Below, one piece after another: positions 2,287 through 17,242 of a stretch of 24,840 bases of DNA. The stretch comes from a virus. The DNA lies in IMG/VR virus record IMGVR_UViG_3300027754_000414, positions 1 to 24,840 of that record; one strand, 5' to 3'. The notes below the pieces were generated by a model. That model made no database searches. It saw only the letters and a program-made list of their open reading frames with translations, and was not told the DNA's origin. Positions within the stretch are counted from its first letter, which is position 1. Each line of letters starts with the position of its first letter. The position numbers and the translations under genes were made by a program.

Positions 2287-2541
2287 TTAGACGTACTTGT
2301 TTTTGATGCAGTAGGAGACCAGATTCGCTCGGCTCCCTTCGATTACCTTTCCGGTGAACTCTCCGCTCCGGTCAATCTGGTTGATGTAGCTGACTGTCTT
2401 GCCGTCTCGGTTGATCTCTCCGATCAGATTCTCCGCTGCTGCTTCCTTCTTCTCAATCCGGTCCATGTAGCGGTCTTCGGCAGCAACTCGGCGGTTAGAC
2501 TTAGCGTTTAGGAGGGCTTCTAGTTCGCAAATTTCGTTCAT
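2287..2541 (-). CDS. First gene of the leftward endolysin/regulator operon (84 aa)
   Basis: ATG at 2541 is the first start downstream of the promoter at 2587-2616, about 40 nt after the expected transcription start. The start context is AAATACG-ATG. Residues 1-42 form a charged helix (MNEICELEALLNAKSNRRVA, EDRYMDRIEKKEAAAENLIG); residues 45-84 look like a small beta domain (DGKTVSYINQIDRSGEFTGK). Function unknown. A 59-nt spacer with a weak 4-bp GC hairpin (2273-2283) separates it from the next gene. Confidence 0.55.
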   Translation of the reverse strand: MNEICELEALLNAKSNRRVAAEDRYMDRIEKKEAAAENLIGEINRDGKTVSYINQIDRSGEFTGKVIEGSRANLVSYCIKNKYV

Positions 2542-2677: not shown

Positions 2678-2746
2678 GAAATCGCGGTGTTTCGTGCGGT
2701 GACCCCACCTGTCGCAGGATCTCCCTGCGCACCATTCCGCGATTTC
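2678..2746 (-). other. Non-coding inverted-repeat structure downstream of rusA (possible structured RNA)
   Basis: A perfect 10-bp inverted repeat (GAAATCGCGG at 2678-2687 and CCGCGATTTC at 2737-2746) encloses a perfect 6-bp hairpin (CGCAGG 2713-2718, loop ATCTC, CCTGCG 2724-2729) and a 4-bp hairpin (GGTG 2698-2701 / CACC 2706-2709). The segment begins only 7 nt after the rusA stop. The layout resembles a three-way junction: a closing stem with two arms. No known riboswitch or ribozyme was recognised. It may be a terminator module, a transcript-protecting 3' structure or a protein-binding DNA site. Confidence 0.5.
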
Positions 2747-2753
2747 TGAGAGG

Positions 2754-3176
2754 CTAGTCAGCCGAGATACTTACGCTGCATCCGACAGCGTTGAGCGCGT
2801 ACGTTTTCGTAGCGGTGATCTCGCAGATTTGCGAGTCATCCAGCCAGATCCGTTGAGTGTCCGTGATCGCGTCCGTAACGGCTTTGATGAGGTTGTCCAA
2901 ATCCGGCTTTTTGCAATGCCAGACTGGTGATTTCGGCTTCGGTACACCGTGCTTGTCCAGATGCACCTTTGGTCTCGGCAGGAAGAAGTCTAGCTGGATG
3001 CGAACAACTCCCGCTATAATTGATTCTGGAGCGTTGGCGACGGCTTGTCGCCTAACCTCTTGCTTCCAAGCCTCAGCTCCGTCTGGCGTGTAAACTCCGG
3101 CGTGACCACCGCGCACAAACGCTTTTACCCGAGGTTGCGCCTTCGGGATTCCCGCGACAAAAAAGCTAAGATTCAT
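2754..3176 (-). CDS. rusA: RusA-family Holliday junction resolvase (140 aa)
   Basis: Resolves branched DNA, such as recombination or replication intermediates, before packaging. The diagnostic block KKPDLDNLIKAVTDAI followed by WLDDSQI is present. D92, D94 and D113 have the same spacing as catalytic D70, D72 and D91 of E. coli RusA, and K98 matches its essential lysine. The length is near that of the family (about 120 aa). I chose the ATG at 3176 (MNLSFFVAGIPKAQPR), which begins right at the conserved fold. The longer open frame to 3272 would run through the upstream SSB-like gene. The start overlaps that gene's end by 11 nt. Last gene of the recombination operon. Confidence 0.9.
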   Translation of the reverse strand: MNLSFFVAGIPKAQPRVKAFVRGGHAGVYTPDGAEAWKQEVRRQAVANAPESIIAGVVRIQLDFFLPRPKVHLDKHGVPKPKSPVWHCKKPDLDNLIKAVTDAITDTQRIWLDDSQICEITATKTYALNAVGCSVSISAD

Positions 3177-3495
3177 GTCCTGAAGGAATGATCTCGCTGA
3201 TGCGTCCGGTGATCCGAGGATTAGCGTACCACCAGCCGGTGGAACTCTTATCCGCGACGGCATCGCAGTCACCGTCGAACATAATATGTGTCCCCTCGAT
3301 AAGCAGATTTACCGAGTCCATATCCTCTGCGTCAAAAGATCGGAACGTGACCCGTTGAGCATACGGCTTCCCGTTGCCCAACGTGCGTTTTTCAAACTCA
3401 ATCACGGCAATCAGGAACTGTTTGCCATCGTCGGTCGTGATGATCTCAGCGTCTGAGTGGAGCCGCCCAAAGCCACGCGCCCATAGATGCCTCAT
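3166..3495 (-). CDS. OB-fold single-stranded-DNA-binding-like protein (109 aa)
   Basis: The pattern resembles a bacterial SSB OB-fold: an N-terminal strand with GFGRLHSDAEI, a GKQFLIAVIEFE strand, a basic loop (KRTLGNGKPYAQRVTFRSF), a LLIEGTHIMFDGD strand where SSB has its 'kG-V-V-G' strand, and a closing strand with an aromatic cluster (GWWYANPRITGRI). No acidic C-terminal tip of the canonical SSB type is seen. Its position between the nuclease/annealase genes and rusA fits a role in coating single strands. ATG at 3495 overlaps the upstream stop (ATGA). Assignment is by fold pattern only, without close similarity to a named SSB. Confidence 0.6.
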   Translation of the reverse strand: MRHLWARGFGRLHSDAEIITTDDGKQFLIAVIEFEKRTLGNGKPYAQRVTFRSFDAEDMDSVNLLIEGTHIMFDGDCDAVADKSSTGWWYANPRITGRISEIIPSGHES

Positions 3496-5861: not shown

Positions 5862-5890
5862 CGGATAACCCAACGGTGGGTTTGTGTCAA
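5862..5890 (-). promoter_or_regulatory. Promoter with palindromic operator, recombination operon
   Basis: Minus strand: TTGACA (5890-5885, a perfect -35 consensus that includes the stop of the 900-aa tail gene), a 17-nt spacer, then TATCCG (5867-5862, a weak -10). The spacer holds CCCACCGTTGGG. The same TTGAC box, palindrome and following TT recur at 2587-2616 in the same spacing. A consensus -35 with a poor -10 suggests a need for an activator or a tightly regulated promoter. Promoter identity is inferred from the sequence. Confidence 0.6.
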
Positions 5891-8589
5891 GCGACATCCA
5901 GATCAACCAGTCGAATGGTCCGGTAGAGATCACCGTTAGTTACGTCAACGTAGCTGGCTCCAACGACCGTCTCGCCAAATCCGTAAGATCGCTTTGGAAT
6001 CCAAGCGGTTGCCGGTGTAATTATTCCACCAAATGCGTCAACCACTTGATTTGTGCAATCAAAATTGAAGGACTTAAAACCTTTAGAACTGCAATAAGTT
6101 GCAATGTCAATTTGAGTTACAATATAGTAATATTCCATTACCAAAGGATCATTATCAAATATCTTTTTGGCTTGGATTCCATTGGCAATCAAAGAGTCAT
6201 ACTGTTCTGGGGTGATAAAGAAAGACGGGCCAAATTGTGTGTCTAAGACTGTTGTGGTTGTGTCCTTTGGCATGAAGATCCCCAATCTAGATCCCTGCAA
6301 AAGCCCCGAAGCACCAAAACTATAGATTGGACACCATTCCTCACCGTGACCCATCGGAACTGCTCTATTCCATCCAGCAACGTGAGCCTCTAACAAGTTC
6401 CAAAGGAAAGCGGATTTTGGAATCTTATGATAGAACTGACCGATTCCATCGTAATCATTAGCGTTAGCTGTTGAGCTATAAGGAAGATCAAAATAGGTAG
6501 ATGATGTCCACCTAATGTCTGCAATATAAGCTTGCTCGGTTGTTGTAACAGAAATCTGAGTGTACCAAGGAGCCAAGCAAGCCATTGCAGCGTTGTTTTG
6601 ATCTTTAAAGACATCATCAGCAACACCAGTGCTTTGAACCGTCTTATTTGGTTGCCCAAGTATTCTTACAGAAGCATCAACACCTCCTTTGCCTCCCCAC
6701 TTATTGACCCAGAAATCAGATCCAAATACATTGGTTACTGCTGGAACAAGCGGATCTGTGGTAAATACTCGCTCCAGATTGTAATCGTATACGCTGCTCG
6801 AAAATCCCCAAGGTCCACCAGAAGGAACGTAAGCGCAATTGACTGCCGGATAATAGCTCGCTCCTCCAATTGCTGTTCCAATCTGTGGGAAAACGTAACC
6901 GTACATACCGCTGTAATTGCTCGGTTGAGCGATTATGTAGGTTTTCTTTGCGTATATATATGGGCCGTTAGTCCATCCAGCAGCAGTACTAAATCCTTTT
7001 GATCTCCAATCTGTCCGCAACTCAATTACATTTGCGGTTCGTTCATAATTTGGTAAATCGCTAAAAGCGTTTGCATCATAGTTTTCTAGTCCACGAGCCG
7101 TCGATACTGATGCTTGCAATCCAAGAGAAGTGAGCTTGATAATTCCAACCTTTTCTTCAGAGATATCAGCTACATCGTCATAATTGTTAAGAAATCCCTC
7201 TTCAACTGCAATACGTCTTCGGAGATCACGCATTGTCTCCATCCACGTTGGGACGTTTCCAGCTAGCCATTGAGTTGCTGCGTTAGGTGAAGCTACATTC
7301 TGCGTGTAATAATATTCGGGATAAGCAATTGAAATATATGTTGTTGTTGGATTTATCTGCCAATACGGATCAGATGCTCCAAAGAACACGTTGCAATCAA
7401 TAGGGTAGATCCTAATAATTGCATTTGGTCTTTTGCTGGTCATTACCAATATGTCACCAGAAATCTGAACATTGATTCCAACTCTATTAAGTTGTTCTAA
7501 AAACAGTGTCGTGCCAGTAAAAAACCTAATGTAATCTTCAAACACTTCTCCGGTTAGACTGCTGTAAATCTGAACTCTAGCGCGTCCCCAAGTGAAGATT
7601 GCATCACCAATTTTAGTGTTAGCATCGGTTGGGTCTGCGTATTCTGGATACAATGCGCGAAGGTCATACATGTATCGAGCATCCACCCAAGCACCCATTG
7701 CTCGCATCCACTGGAGAGCAATGAATGGATTGGCAATGTTGTTGGCTTTAGCAGATCGCTCTATACAAACAGATAGCGATTCTGGTTGTCCGTACATTGG
7801 CGGACCACCGGCAAAATAGGGAACGTCTCCGCTGAAGTATGGGAAGAAATAGACGCATGGAGTCTTATCTCTCCACGTTGTTGCCCAAGAGCCGTCAGCG
7901 CGTCTCCTGAATGATCTACAGCCCATTGCAGGGATTGTCTTGCGTTCTGCTGATCCGTCTGGCAATTGGAGTAAGACTATCGCGTCTCGACTTCCGCAGT
8001 TGTGAACTCTCCAGCAATCAAACCGCTGGTATGAATTGAGAATCTTAAAGGTTGTAACACCTTCAAGCCTAATCTCAGCAACAGCAATCTTATGCTTGTG
8101 AATTCTACCCGGAGGCAAAGATGGAATAGAACTAACAGAAGAAAAGTAAGACCTAACGTAAGAAAGATAACCGGAATTCCAATCATCCCATCCTAAATGG
8201 ATATCGTATTCAATACCATCAACAGTTCTTTTGTGTAACTCAAAAGACTTTTGAATTGCCGCTATGTTGCAATTGTTGGAATTGAATGTAGTAACGTATT
8301 TATCAACATAAACCTGACCTCCTCCTTTGTCTTGATACTTTGTTTCTAGGAAAGAAAGCTCATGTTCAATTTGAGTTTGAGTTGGAGTGCTTCCAAAGAC
8401 ATAAAAGCTTGTGTCTGGATCTCTGGAATAATCGTATGTAACACCAAAAGGTATTTTTTGACCAAGCCCAACAACATACGGAGTCTTACCGTCTAAAGTT
8501 CTAGCGCACTTATTGTCGAAACGAGAGTACAGATCATTGAGATTACTGGCACTCCACATTCGATCTTTGCGATCAATTGCCAATGGCAT
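5887..8589 (-). CDS. Large tail-tip / receptor-binding candidate protein (900 aa)
   Basis: The largest gene here, last of the structural cluster and directly after the small tail proteins, so most likely a distal tail or host-recognition protein. No lambda J, Tal or fibre motif was recognised. The protein is very rich in Tyr, Trp, Phe and Asn throughout (for example PEYYYTQNVASP and GWDDWNSGYLSYVRSYFSSV), as in large beta-structured or carbohydrate-binding virion proteins. It has scattered cysteines and no coiled coil or collagen repeat. Residues 1-60 contain LNDLYSRFDNK; a central block TMRDLRRRIAVEEGFLNNYD looks helical. The DNA is more AT-rich than the head genes. ATG at 8589, 1 nt after the upstream stop. 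A depolymerase role cannot be excluded. Confidence 0.75.
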   Translation of the reverse strand: MPLAIDRKDRMWSASNLNDLYSRFDNKCARTLDGKTPYVVGLGQKIPFGVTYDYSRDPDTSFYVFGSTPTQTQIEHELSFLETKYQDKGGGQVYVDKYVTTFNSNNCNIAAIQKSFELHKRTVDGIEYDIHLGWDDWNSGYLSYVRSYFSSVSSIPSLPPGRIHKHKIAVAEIRLEGVTTFKILNSYQRFDCWRVHNCGSRDAIVLLQLPDGSAERKTIPAMGCRSFRRRADGSWATTWRDKTPCVYFFPYFSGDVPYFAGGPPMYGQPESLSVCIERSAKANNIANPFIALQWMRAMGAWVDARYMYDLRALYPEYADPTDANTKIGDAIFTWGRARVQIYSSLTGEVFEDYIRFFTGTTLFLEQLNRVGINVQISGDILVMTSKRPNAIIRIYPIDCNVFFGASDPYWQINPTTTYISIAYPEYYYTQNVASPNAATQWLAGNVPTWMETMRDLRRRIAVEEGFLNNYDDVADISEEKVGIIKLTSLGLQASVSTARGLENYDANAFSDLPNYERTANVIELRTDWRSKGFSTAAGWTNGPYIYAKKTYIIAQPSNYSGMYGYVFPQIGTAIGGASYYPAVNCAYVPSGGPWGFSSSVYDYNLERVFTTDPLVPAVTNVFGSDFWVNKWGGKGGVDASVRILGQPNKTVQSTGVADDVFKDQNNAAMACLAPWYTQISVTTTEQAYIADIRWTSSTYFDLPYSSTANANDYDGIGQFYHKIPKSAFLWNLLEAHVAGWNRAVPMGHGEEWCPIYSFGASGLLQGSRLGIFMPKDTTTTVLDTQFGPSFFITPEQYDSLIANGIQAKKIFDNDPLVMEYYYIVTQIDIATYCSSKGFKSFNFDCTNQVVDAFGGIITPATAWIPKRSYGFGETVVGASYVDVTNGDLYRTIRLVDLDVA

Positions 8590-11500: not shown

Positions 11501-12052
11501 TTAGTTATCTTGTTGGTTTTGCCATATTGTTTCGCTTTGGTCGTCCCACAACTGAACCTGACCCATCATCTCTGCGTGAGCTAGAATCAACCTTTCTGCG
11601 TCACCAAGAGGCATCCTGACGGCATCGTCTGGTCCAATCCCGATATTGAGACAACCGACAAGCACTCGTTCAGTCCACGGCATTGCAGGACGCTTAGATT
11701 TAGTTCCAGCTTCCACTAGTACCTCGGGAGCGGTGGATTGCTCTTTGAGCCACAACTGGAACTTGTCAGACTCAACCATCAGATTCATCCGCTGAATCCG
11801 TTTTGACCACAGCCGGAGGAATAGATCCCTCCAAATGGATTTAATTGACTTAATGGACTCCAGCGGAGGCTGTGAGCAAACAAGCACAGCCTCCGCTAGA
11901 TCATTGGAGCTAATCTCGCCACCTAGAACGTAAGGGGATCGCAGTCTTTGCAGCAATATCGCGTGACCCACGGTGTATGGGACAAGTCGAACCCCTAGCA
12001 CCACTGGTGCTGGAGGTCCGCTCTCTGCGAGTATCTTTGCAAGTTCTGACAC
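11501..12052 (-). CDS. Tail assembly chaperone-position protein (183 aa)
   Basis: Lies between tail tube and tape measure, the place of gpG/gpGT-type tail assembly chaperones. I chose the GTG at 12052 (VSELAKILAESGPPAP), 2 nt after the tail tube stop. The longer open frame to 12106 would run into the tail tube gene. Features: LRLVPYTVGHAILLQRLRSP-like basic/hydrophobic start, a charged helix (IWRDLFLRLWSKRIQRMNLM), and an acidic C-terminus (ERLILAHAEMMGQVQLWDDQ). No second overlapping frame or slippery heptamer was seen, so a single-product chaperone without programmed frameshift is inferred. Function from position. Confidence 0.65.
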   Translation of the reverse strand: MSELAKILAESGPPAPVVLGVRLVPYTVGHAILLQRLRSPYVLGGEISSNDLAEAVLVCSQPPLESIKSIKSIWRDLFLRLWSKRIQRMNLMVESDKFQLWLKEQSTAPEVLVEAGTKSKRPAMPWTERVLVGCLNIGIGPDDAVRMPLGDAERLILAHAEMMGQVQLWDDQSETIWQNQQDN

Positions 12053-17209: not shown

Positions 17210-17242
17210 GGGAGGGTCACTAGCGTATCCAGTGACCCTCCC
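17210..17242 (-). terminator. Perfect 12-bp hairpin after the capsid genes
   Basis: Stem GGGAGGGTCACT / AGTGACCCTCCC, all 12 bp paired, with a 9-nt loop. On the minus strand it is followed by TTTAACC, a short U run, and on the plus strand by AGTTTTGATTT, so it may work in either direction. It starts 13 nt after the stop of the 58-aa gene. It probably reduces read-through or stabilises the upstream capsid transcript 3' end. Confidence 0.75.

Follow-up and report, generated by a model that had tools for sequence, protein, structure and literature searches.

The window analyzed here is a stretch of 24,840 nucleotides of viral DNA (IMG/VR record IMGVR_UViG_3300027754_000414, positions 1 to 24,840), in which the genes that could be named encode a terminase, a portal protein, a head protease, a tape measure protein, RecT, an exonuclease, a MazG-like protein and the Holliday-junction resolvase RusA. 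All of them lie on the minus strand and, therefore, the RNA to be considered is the minus-strand one. A 900-aa protein encoded on the minus strand between the tail genes and recT (5887–8589) had no PHROG or Pfam match. The 212 nt downstream of rusA (2542–2753), described in the original prediction as holding no gene, indeed lack a credible one, the sole ORF being of 40 aa. Within this stretch, and separated from the rusA stop by about 7–8 nt, all three predicted pairings were confirmed, comprising the perfect 10-bp arms, in which GAAATCGCGG is perfectly complementary to CCGCGATTTC, and the 6-bp and 4-bp hairpins enclosed by them (Table 1).

Table 1. Coordinates of the structured RNA element, its parts and the neighboring rusA gene in the window
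Feature	Position	Strand	Sequence and evidence
Whole structured RNA element	2676–2748	−	Covariance-model match (cmsearch R1, 70.6 bits, E 7e-13; the window sequence is itself part of the training set); 237 distinct homologues
P1, 5′ arm	2737–2746	−	CCGCGATTTC on +, GAAATCGCGG on −; 98.7% of P1 cells paired in 30 RusA-lineage relatives
P1, 3′ arm	2678–2687	−	P1 pairs among the top mutual-information pairs
J1/2	2730–2736	−	AAUGGUG (consensus NAUGGUG); final G covaries with the A that directly follows P2
P2 hairpin	2713–2729	−	CGCAGG-GAGAU-CCUGCG, conserved loop GAGAN (CGCAGG 2713–2718/CCTGCG 2724–2729); 99.4–100% of cells paired; G-U versus A-C 67:3
J2/3	2710–2712	−	ACA (family consensus AC); A at position 1 in 215/237, C at position 2 in 230/237
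P3 hairpin	2698–2709	−	GGUG-(loop)-CACC, variable loop (GGTG 2698–2701/CACC 2706–2709); fold; X5/X3 pairs covary
J3/1, part	2688–2693	−	Conserved GAAACA; 115/117 copies GAAACA, 2/117 GAAATA (pooled set, see text)
RusA Holliday-junction resolvase gene (upstream; context, outside the RNA)	2754–3272	−	PF05866 E 4e-22; phrog_140 E 1e-32

The minus strand also carries, at 2585–2616 and thus downstream of the element, a sigma-70-like promoter (TTGACG-18-TATGGT) with the dyad CCCA-N4-TGGG in its spacer. Most RusA-lineage relatives (L002–L035) retain this dyad, again downstream of the element, with a matched change in L033 (CCGAGCGTTCGG), and the dyad looks like a conserved, putative repressor operator. 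The gene that follows the promoter varies between the window (2287–2541) and the same slot in L002–L035, while promoter and leader are conserved, and this position is a predicted cassette-like exchange slot.

From one sequence alone, the excess of the element over chance was only moderate. The fold of the window copy beat 200 of 200 shuffles, with z scores of −3.60 for the minus strand and −3.39 for the plus strand, and perfect 10-bp repeats with a spacer of at most 60 nt occurred at three places in the window versus a mean of 1.6 hits in shuffles. Judgement by the single sequence was abandoned because the two strands fold about equally well. Two more perfect inverted repeats longer than 10 bp are found in the window, at 11862–11897 and 17210–17242.

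The comparative evidence was obtained from homologous loci, with covariation judged by mutual information, shuffles and slid controls. A RusA protein search led to 37 loci, 34 of them from close relatives (68–91% protein identity), and the element was kept downstream of rusA in 33 of these 34; in L020, a plain 8-bp hairpin (GAGGAAAA-tgttgag-TTTTCCTC, 6514–6560) replaces the three-way junction after rusA. In the RusA-lineage alignment of 30 sequences, 96.5% of the pair cells were standard pairs, and 50 double-change cells were counted versus 19.3 after shuffling and no more than 5 in the slid controls. A broad alignment, in which 103 matches were aligned by the covariance model, yielded 87.8% paired cells versus 50.4% when shuffled and 728 double changes versus 255; having been fitted to the model, this alignment leans towards it, which is not the case for the mutual-information result. 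The latter was obtained from 237 distinct sequences (effective number 161) with no structure supplied, and its top pairs fell in P1 (about 10), P2 (6) and P3 (5), while no strong further pair suggestive of a pseudoknot was detected in this set. Additionally, a weak G-A/A-G exchange extends P2 (GA 210, AG 9). The original prediction had proposed a structured RNA with a three-way junction and had named covariation beforehand as its test; covariation in the RusA-lineage, broad and 237-sequence sets strongly supports this structure, with compensatory changes in all three stems of the homologues, so that the outcome named there as a refutation did not arise.

The same comparisons identified the strand on which the structure acts. 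Cells with G-U outnumbered those with A-C by 67:3 in P2 and by 76:20 in P1, an excess indicating that only one strand is conserved as a molecule, namely the one with NAUGGUG...GAAACA; in the window, this is the transcribed strand (minus, that of the genes). Thus, the comparative data made the element certain and established that it is the minus strand that folds.

The class consensus can be written as P1 - NAUGGUG - P2 (6 bp, loop GAGAN) - AC - P3 - NNGAAACA - P1′, with a size of about 60–75 nt, in which the unpaired strands NAUGGUG, AC and GAAACA are near-invariant and the stems vary freely. Most sets were collected with patterns that fixed parts of the core, above all GAGA. The core is called invariant on the basis of those sets in which the part concerned was left free, and of the RusA lineage, whose members were identified through their protein. 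When J1/2 was left free in the pattern (n = 73), 65 copies carried NATGGTG and 2 carried CATGGTA, 5 had a one-base insertion and 1 had nothing similar. The counts given for J3/1 in Table 1 come from 117 copies in which this part was free in the pattern, a set that pools all loci then collected, some of them first found with patterns fixing GAAACA. The GCGG/CCGC motif in P1 was rejected as an invariant feature because it had been imposed by the first pattern, and L258 and L260 lack it.

A first pattern built on the conserved parts matched 94 stretches in IMG/VR, and a second one, with the P1 sequence left free, gave at least 120 matches and about 100 further copies. By these pattern scans of IMG/VR, at least 237 distinct copies were collected, many of them in bacterial viruses that are unrelated to one another and mostly uncultivated. 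A single copy is usual in viral records; two or more were found in L053-type phages, L274, L288 and L369. In genome_contigs, 7 of the 80 tested matches to the first pattern were clear by model score (58–74 bits) and came from Verrucomicrobiota (four loci, two of them in Geminisphaera colitermitum TAV2), Acidobacteriota (two) and Streptomyces indicus (one), while the other 73, at about 31 bits or less, look like chance and were set aside; 29 more genome_contigs matches included a single weak one, of 36 bits (L232). Model searches of sampled genomes added one copy from Verrucomicrobiota, two from Acidobacteriota and one from Streptomyces. Both TAV2 copies match IMG/VR records (L096 and L139) and, consequently, lie in called proviruses. 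Among isolate phages, limited blastn searches with the element, the consensus, 18 copies and three flanking regions returned no true match, two weak hits being dismissed because they fall inside annotated genes, and a tblastn search with the terminase gave no match in isolates. The element was not found in plasmids. The Rfam scan called for by the original prediction gave no family match: cmscan against Rfam 15 placed nothing over the element in the window, even at E values up to 10, nor over the copies tested in 10 further loci.

It is known with confidence that the element is a real, strand-specific and widespread RNA, absent from Rfam 15. No description of it was found in the open-access literature, and a prior account elsewhere is possible.

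The genes that adjoin the element are highly diverse. The proteins encoded upstream formed 54 clusters and those encoded downstream 50, with no dominant family on either side, the top downstream family accounting for 3 of the 50 clusters. RusA is just a neighbor in the lineage of the window, and the element is independent of the adjoining genes. According to heuristic gene calls, the neighbors were co-directional in 137 of 214 copies, 14 copies lay between convergent genes and a few were apparently antisense. A riboswitch or another gene-specific leader would agree with the aptamer-like conserved junction core and with downstream genes that sometimes start within 30 nt, but the 50 downstream clusters without a dominant family and the copies in coding sequence and in tRNA arrays make this reading highly improbable, and the gene-specific riboswitch was dropped on account of the small top downstream family.

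A site acting at the DNA level (in packaging, replication or recombination), extruded as a hairpin, was also considered. It would account for the usual single copy per record and for the occasional vicinity of terminase or portal genes; however, the G-U to A-C ratio in P2 and the strong gene-strand bias speak against it, as do the many different positions occupied, including those beside rusA and far from the terminase genes, and the several copies present in one tRNA array (L369). Such a site is thus extremely improbable. The replication or recombination site tied to rusA, as originally suggested, fared no better, given dozens of unrelated neighbor genes and a G-U bias that denotes a single RNA strand.

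The position of the element relative to gene ends raises the possibility of a 3′-end element, that is, a terminator or an mRNA 3′ stabilizer after rusA and other genes. The start of P1 follows the upstream stop codon by a median of 5 nt (a value in which the RusA lineage is over-represented), some copies lie between convergent genes, the simple hairpin of L020 replaces the three-way junction, and in the window a hairpin with TTTT follows the element. However, a terminator-like hairpin with a T-run was found within 100 nt after only 12 of 230 copies (2.2 in shuffles), other copies lie inside ORFs or before tRNAs, and a stabilizer needs no near-invariant loop and junction sequence, so that a 3′-end element is very unlikely. 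An intrinsic terminator would be a GC hairpin followed directly by a T-run; the low count of such hairpins led to the terminator being dropped as the identity of the element and, together with the copies inside ORFs, left the originally suggested terminator module unsupported as a general function.

An association with tRNAs was also detected. In nine copies, a same-strand tRNA identified by ARAGORN starts within 13 nt of the P1 end, the distance being no more than 4 nt in five or six cases, whereas about 0.2 copies would be expected to have a tRNA within 30 nt; in some copies, the element lies 2–4 nt 5′ of a phage tRNA. On the minus strand of L369 (550–1300), the tRNAs of a phage array are separated by hairpins, among them several copies of the element, and one divergent variant has GGAGTGGAG instead of AUGGUG.

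Some copies are found inside coding sequence. The element lies in frame within 15 relatives of the terminase large subunit (L499–L512 and L533; phrog_38), where it occupies the linker between conserved blocks; other terminase relatives, devoid of the element, have a shorter acidic linker. The terminase of L513 carries a degenerate remnant of the element, by which its gain or loss could be dated. In the terminase copies, 273 of 273 pair cells were standard in 13 sequences, and the paired substitutions seen in P2 (TCTGGG/CCCAGA, TCCGAG/CTCGGA and CCAGAG/CTCTGG) lead to amino acid changes. Further copies inside ORFs were found in a Mu-type portal gene (L413) and in two other ORFs (L271 and L451); a second reading frame is used in L413 and L271, which makes two frames over the whole set. 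These paired, amino-acid-changing substitutions and the use of two frames indicated that the RNA is selected rather than the protein sequence. Of all arguments against terminators and gene-specific leaders, the copies inside genes are the strongest, and they also weigh seriously against efficient self-cleavage. The presence of the element inside terminase and portal genes also shows that keeping its RNA form is worth a constraint on important proteins.

Self-cleavage deserves consideration because the element has the marks by which ribozyme candidates are recognized, namely 50–80 nt, multistem junctions and highly conserved positions, and thus meets the criteria that ribozyme hunters use (PMC10085705). 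As a new small self-cleaving ribozyme, the element would trim polycistronic phage transcripts at sites past stop codons and ahead of tRNAs. Such a role would agree with its size and three-way junction, with an unpaired core that hardly varies while the stems vary freely, with its sense orientation and with its placement after stop codons and 2–4 nt before tRNAs; theta ribozymes provide a precedent of phage ribozymes adjoining tRNAs (PMC10879173). On the other hand, the copies kept in frame within terminase and portal genes would have their message destroyed by cutting, neither a known ribozyme core nor an Rfam match was found, and ten other motifs picked on similar grounds did not cleave (PMC10085705). 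Considering both sides, a ribozyme appears unlikely.

Theta ribozymes, which are HDV-like, resemble the element in being small structured RNAs that are abundant in uncultivated phages, sense to the genes, often placed beside tRNAs and rare in bacterial genomes (PMC10879173). However, they adopt the HDV double-pseudoknot fold with a catalytic C and a cleavage site at the tRNA 3′ end, whereas the element is a nested three-way junction devoid of pseudoknot covariation that lies 5′ of tRNAs and, in addition, within coding sequence; mutual information recovered only the nested P1, P2 and P3, and there was no Rfam HDV match. Hammerhead ribozymes, including permuted ones, share with the element a three-way junction, one GAAA-containing strand and about the same size (PMC10085705). 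Unlike them, the element lacks the CUGANGA strand, has only AC between its two hairpins and does not match the Rfam hammerhead models; instead of the CUGANGA, GAAA and UH cleavage-site strands, its 237 sequences display NAUGGUG, AC and NNGAAACA. Hammerhead, HDV and hairpin-ribozyme cores, as well as 5S-like words, were dropped after comparison by eye. The packaging RNA of phi29 is another phage RNA with a three-way junction, longer and with interlocking loops; the element differs from it in having no Rfam family match and in that most copies are not beside packaging genes.

With structure, strand, near-invariant core, spread, independence of neighbors and copies inside coding sequence as the observed properties, we infer that the element functions as a portable, non-cleaving binding module in phage transcripts, a reading that we hold with about even confidence. 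It follows from a core that is near-invariant while stems, position and neighbors are free, and from the survival of the host message. The copies close to tRNAs also mark the element as an autonomous unit, mostly present once per record. A widely conserved partner, for which elongating RNA polymerase, an RNase and a common defense protein are candidates, would dock on the junction core, and the module would neither cut the RNA nor regulate its neighbor specifically. Both an action in cis, on its own transcript, and one in trans, as a decoy, would be compatible with a binding module. It is nearly as probable, and still a little short of an even chance, that the three-way-junction core acts on a single conserved host machine, be it RNA polymerase, an RNase or a common defense protein, which it would either neutralize or recruit; the RNA would then be portable enough to have been placed after stop codons, ahead of tRNAs and in frame within terminase and portal genes. 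Some observations do not sit easily with a binding module. A portable cis module would be expected in several operons, but most records carry one copy, and copies flanked by convergent genes or oriented against the genes around them (e.g., L052, L320, L059 and L287) are predicted simply neither by antitermination nor by an mRNA tag. Moreover, a tight core of such size is also typical of a ribozyme or an aptamer.

Two more specific forms of the binding module can be distinguished. In the first one, the RNA would act in cis on elongating RNA polymerase, suppressing downstream termination in a manner functionally like HK022 put, which binds RNA polymerase and thereby suppresses both pausing and termination. 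This would fit the usual single copy per record, the sense strand, the indifference to neighbors, the tolerance in coding sequence and the occurrence in untranslated tRNA arrays. The put RNA, of about 70 nt and effective over 10 kb, is likewise a phage RNA of the nascent transcript present in one or two copies per genome (PMC9378689). However, put consists of two stem-loops located downstream of and near early promoters (PMC9378689), whereas the element is a closed three-way junction with another core and scattered positions, whose third, enclosing stem P1 covaries across the class. In addition, several copies at a gene 3′ end face a convergent gene (L052 and L320), with nothing downstream to protect. 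Antitermination of this kind is, on its own, quite unlikely.

In the second form, the element would be a trans-acting decoy against a host defense or RNA-decay protein, as the indifference to gene context, the presence in several host phyla, the tolerance in any transcript, including coding sequence, and the repetition of the element, in tandem or otherwise, in some phages (L053, L274, L288 and L369) would suggest. The P3-NNGAAAC part bears what we take to be a loose resemblance to the hairpin and GAAAC end of some CRISPR repeats. Neither AUGGU nor GAGA is known to have an equivalent in CRISPR repeats, which counts against a decoy. Phages do carry solitary RNA mimics of CRISPR repeats, the RNA anti-CRISPRs or Racrs, which are also short, structured and portable RNAs (PMC10651486). 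However, Racrs copy the CRISPR repeat and are often found just downstream of a predicted promoter (PMC10651486), whereas the core of the element has no known cellular model. Taken by itself, the decoy is no less doubtful than antitermination; the binding module contains both.

The RNA is carried by phages of several bacterial phyla and was not found in isolates by limited searches, which points to a shared function that model phages may not show. Its short consensus allows direct tests of cleavage, polymerase binding and defense inhibition. If the core does act upon a conserved host machine, it would represent a new mode of RNA-based control between phage and host.
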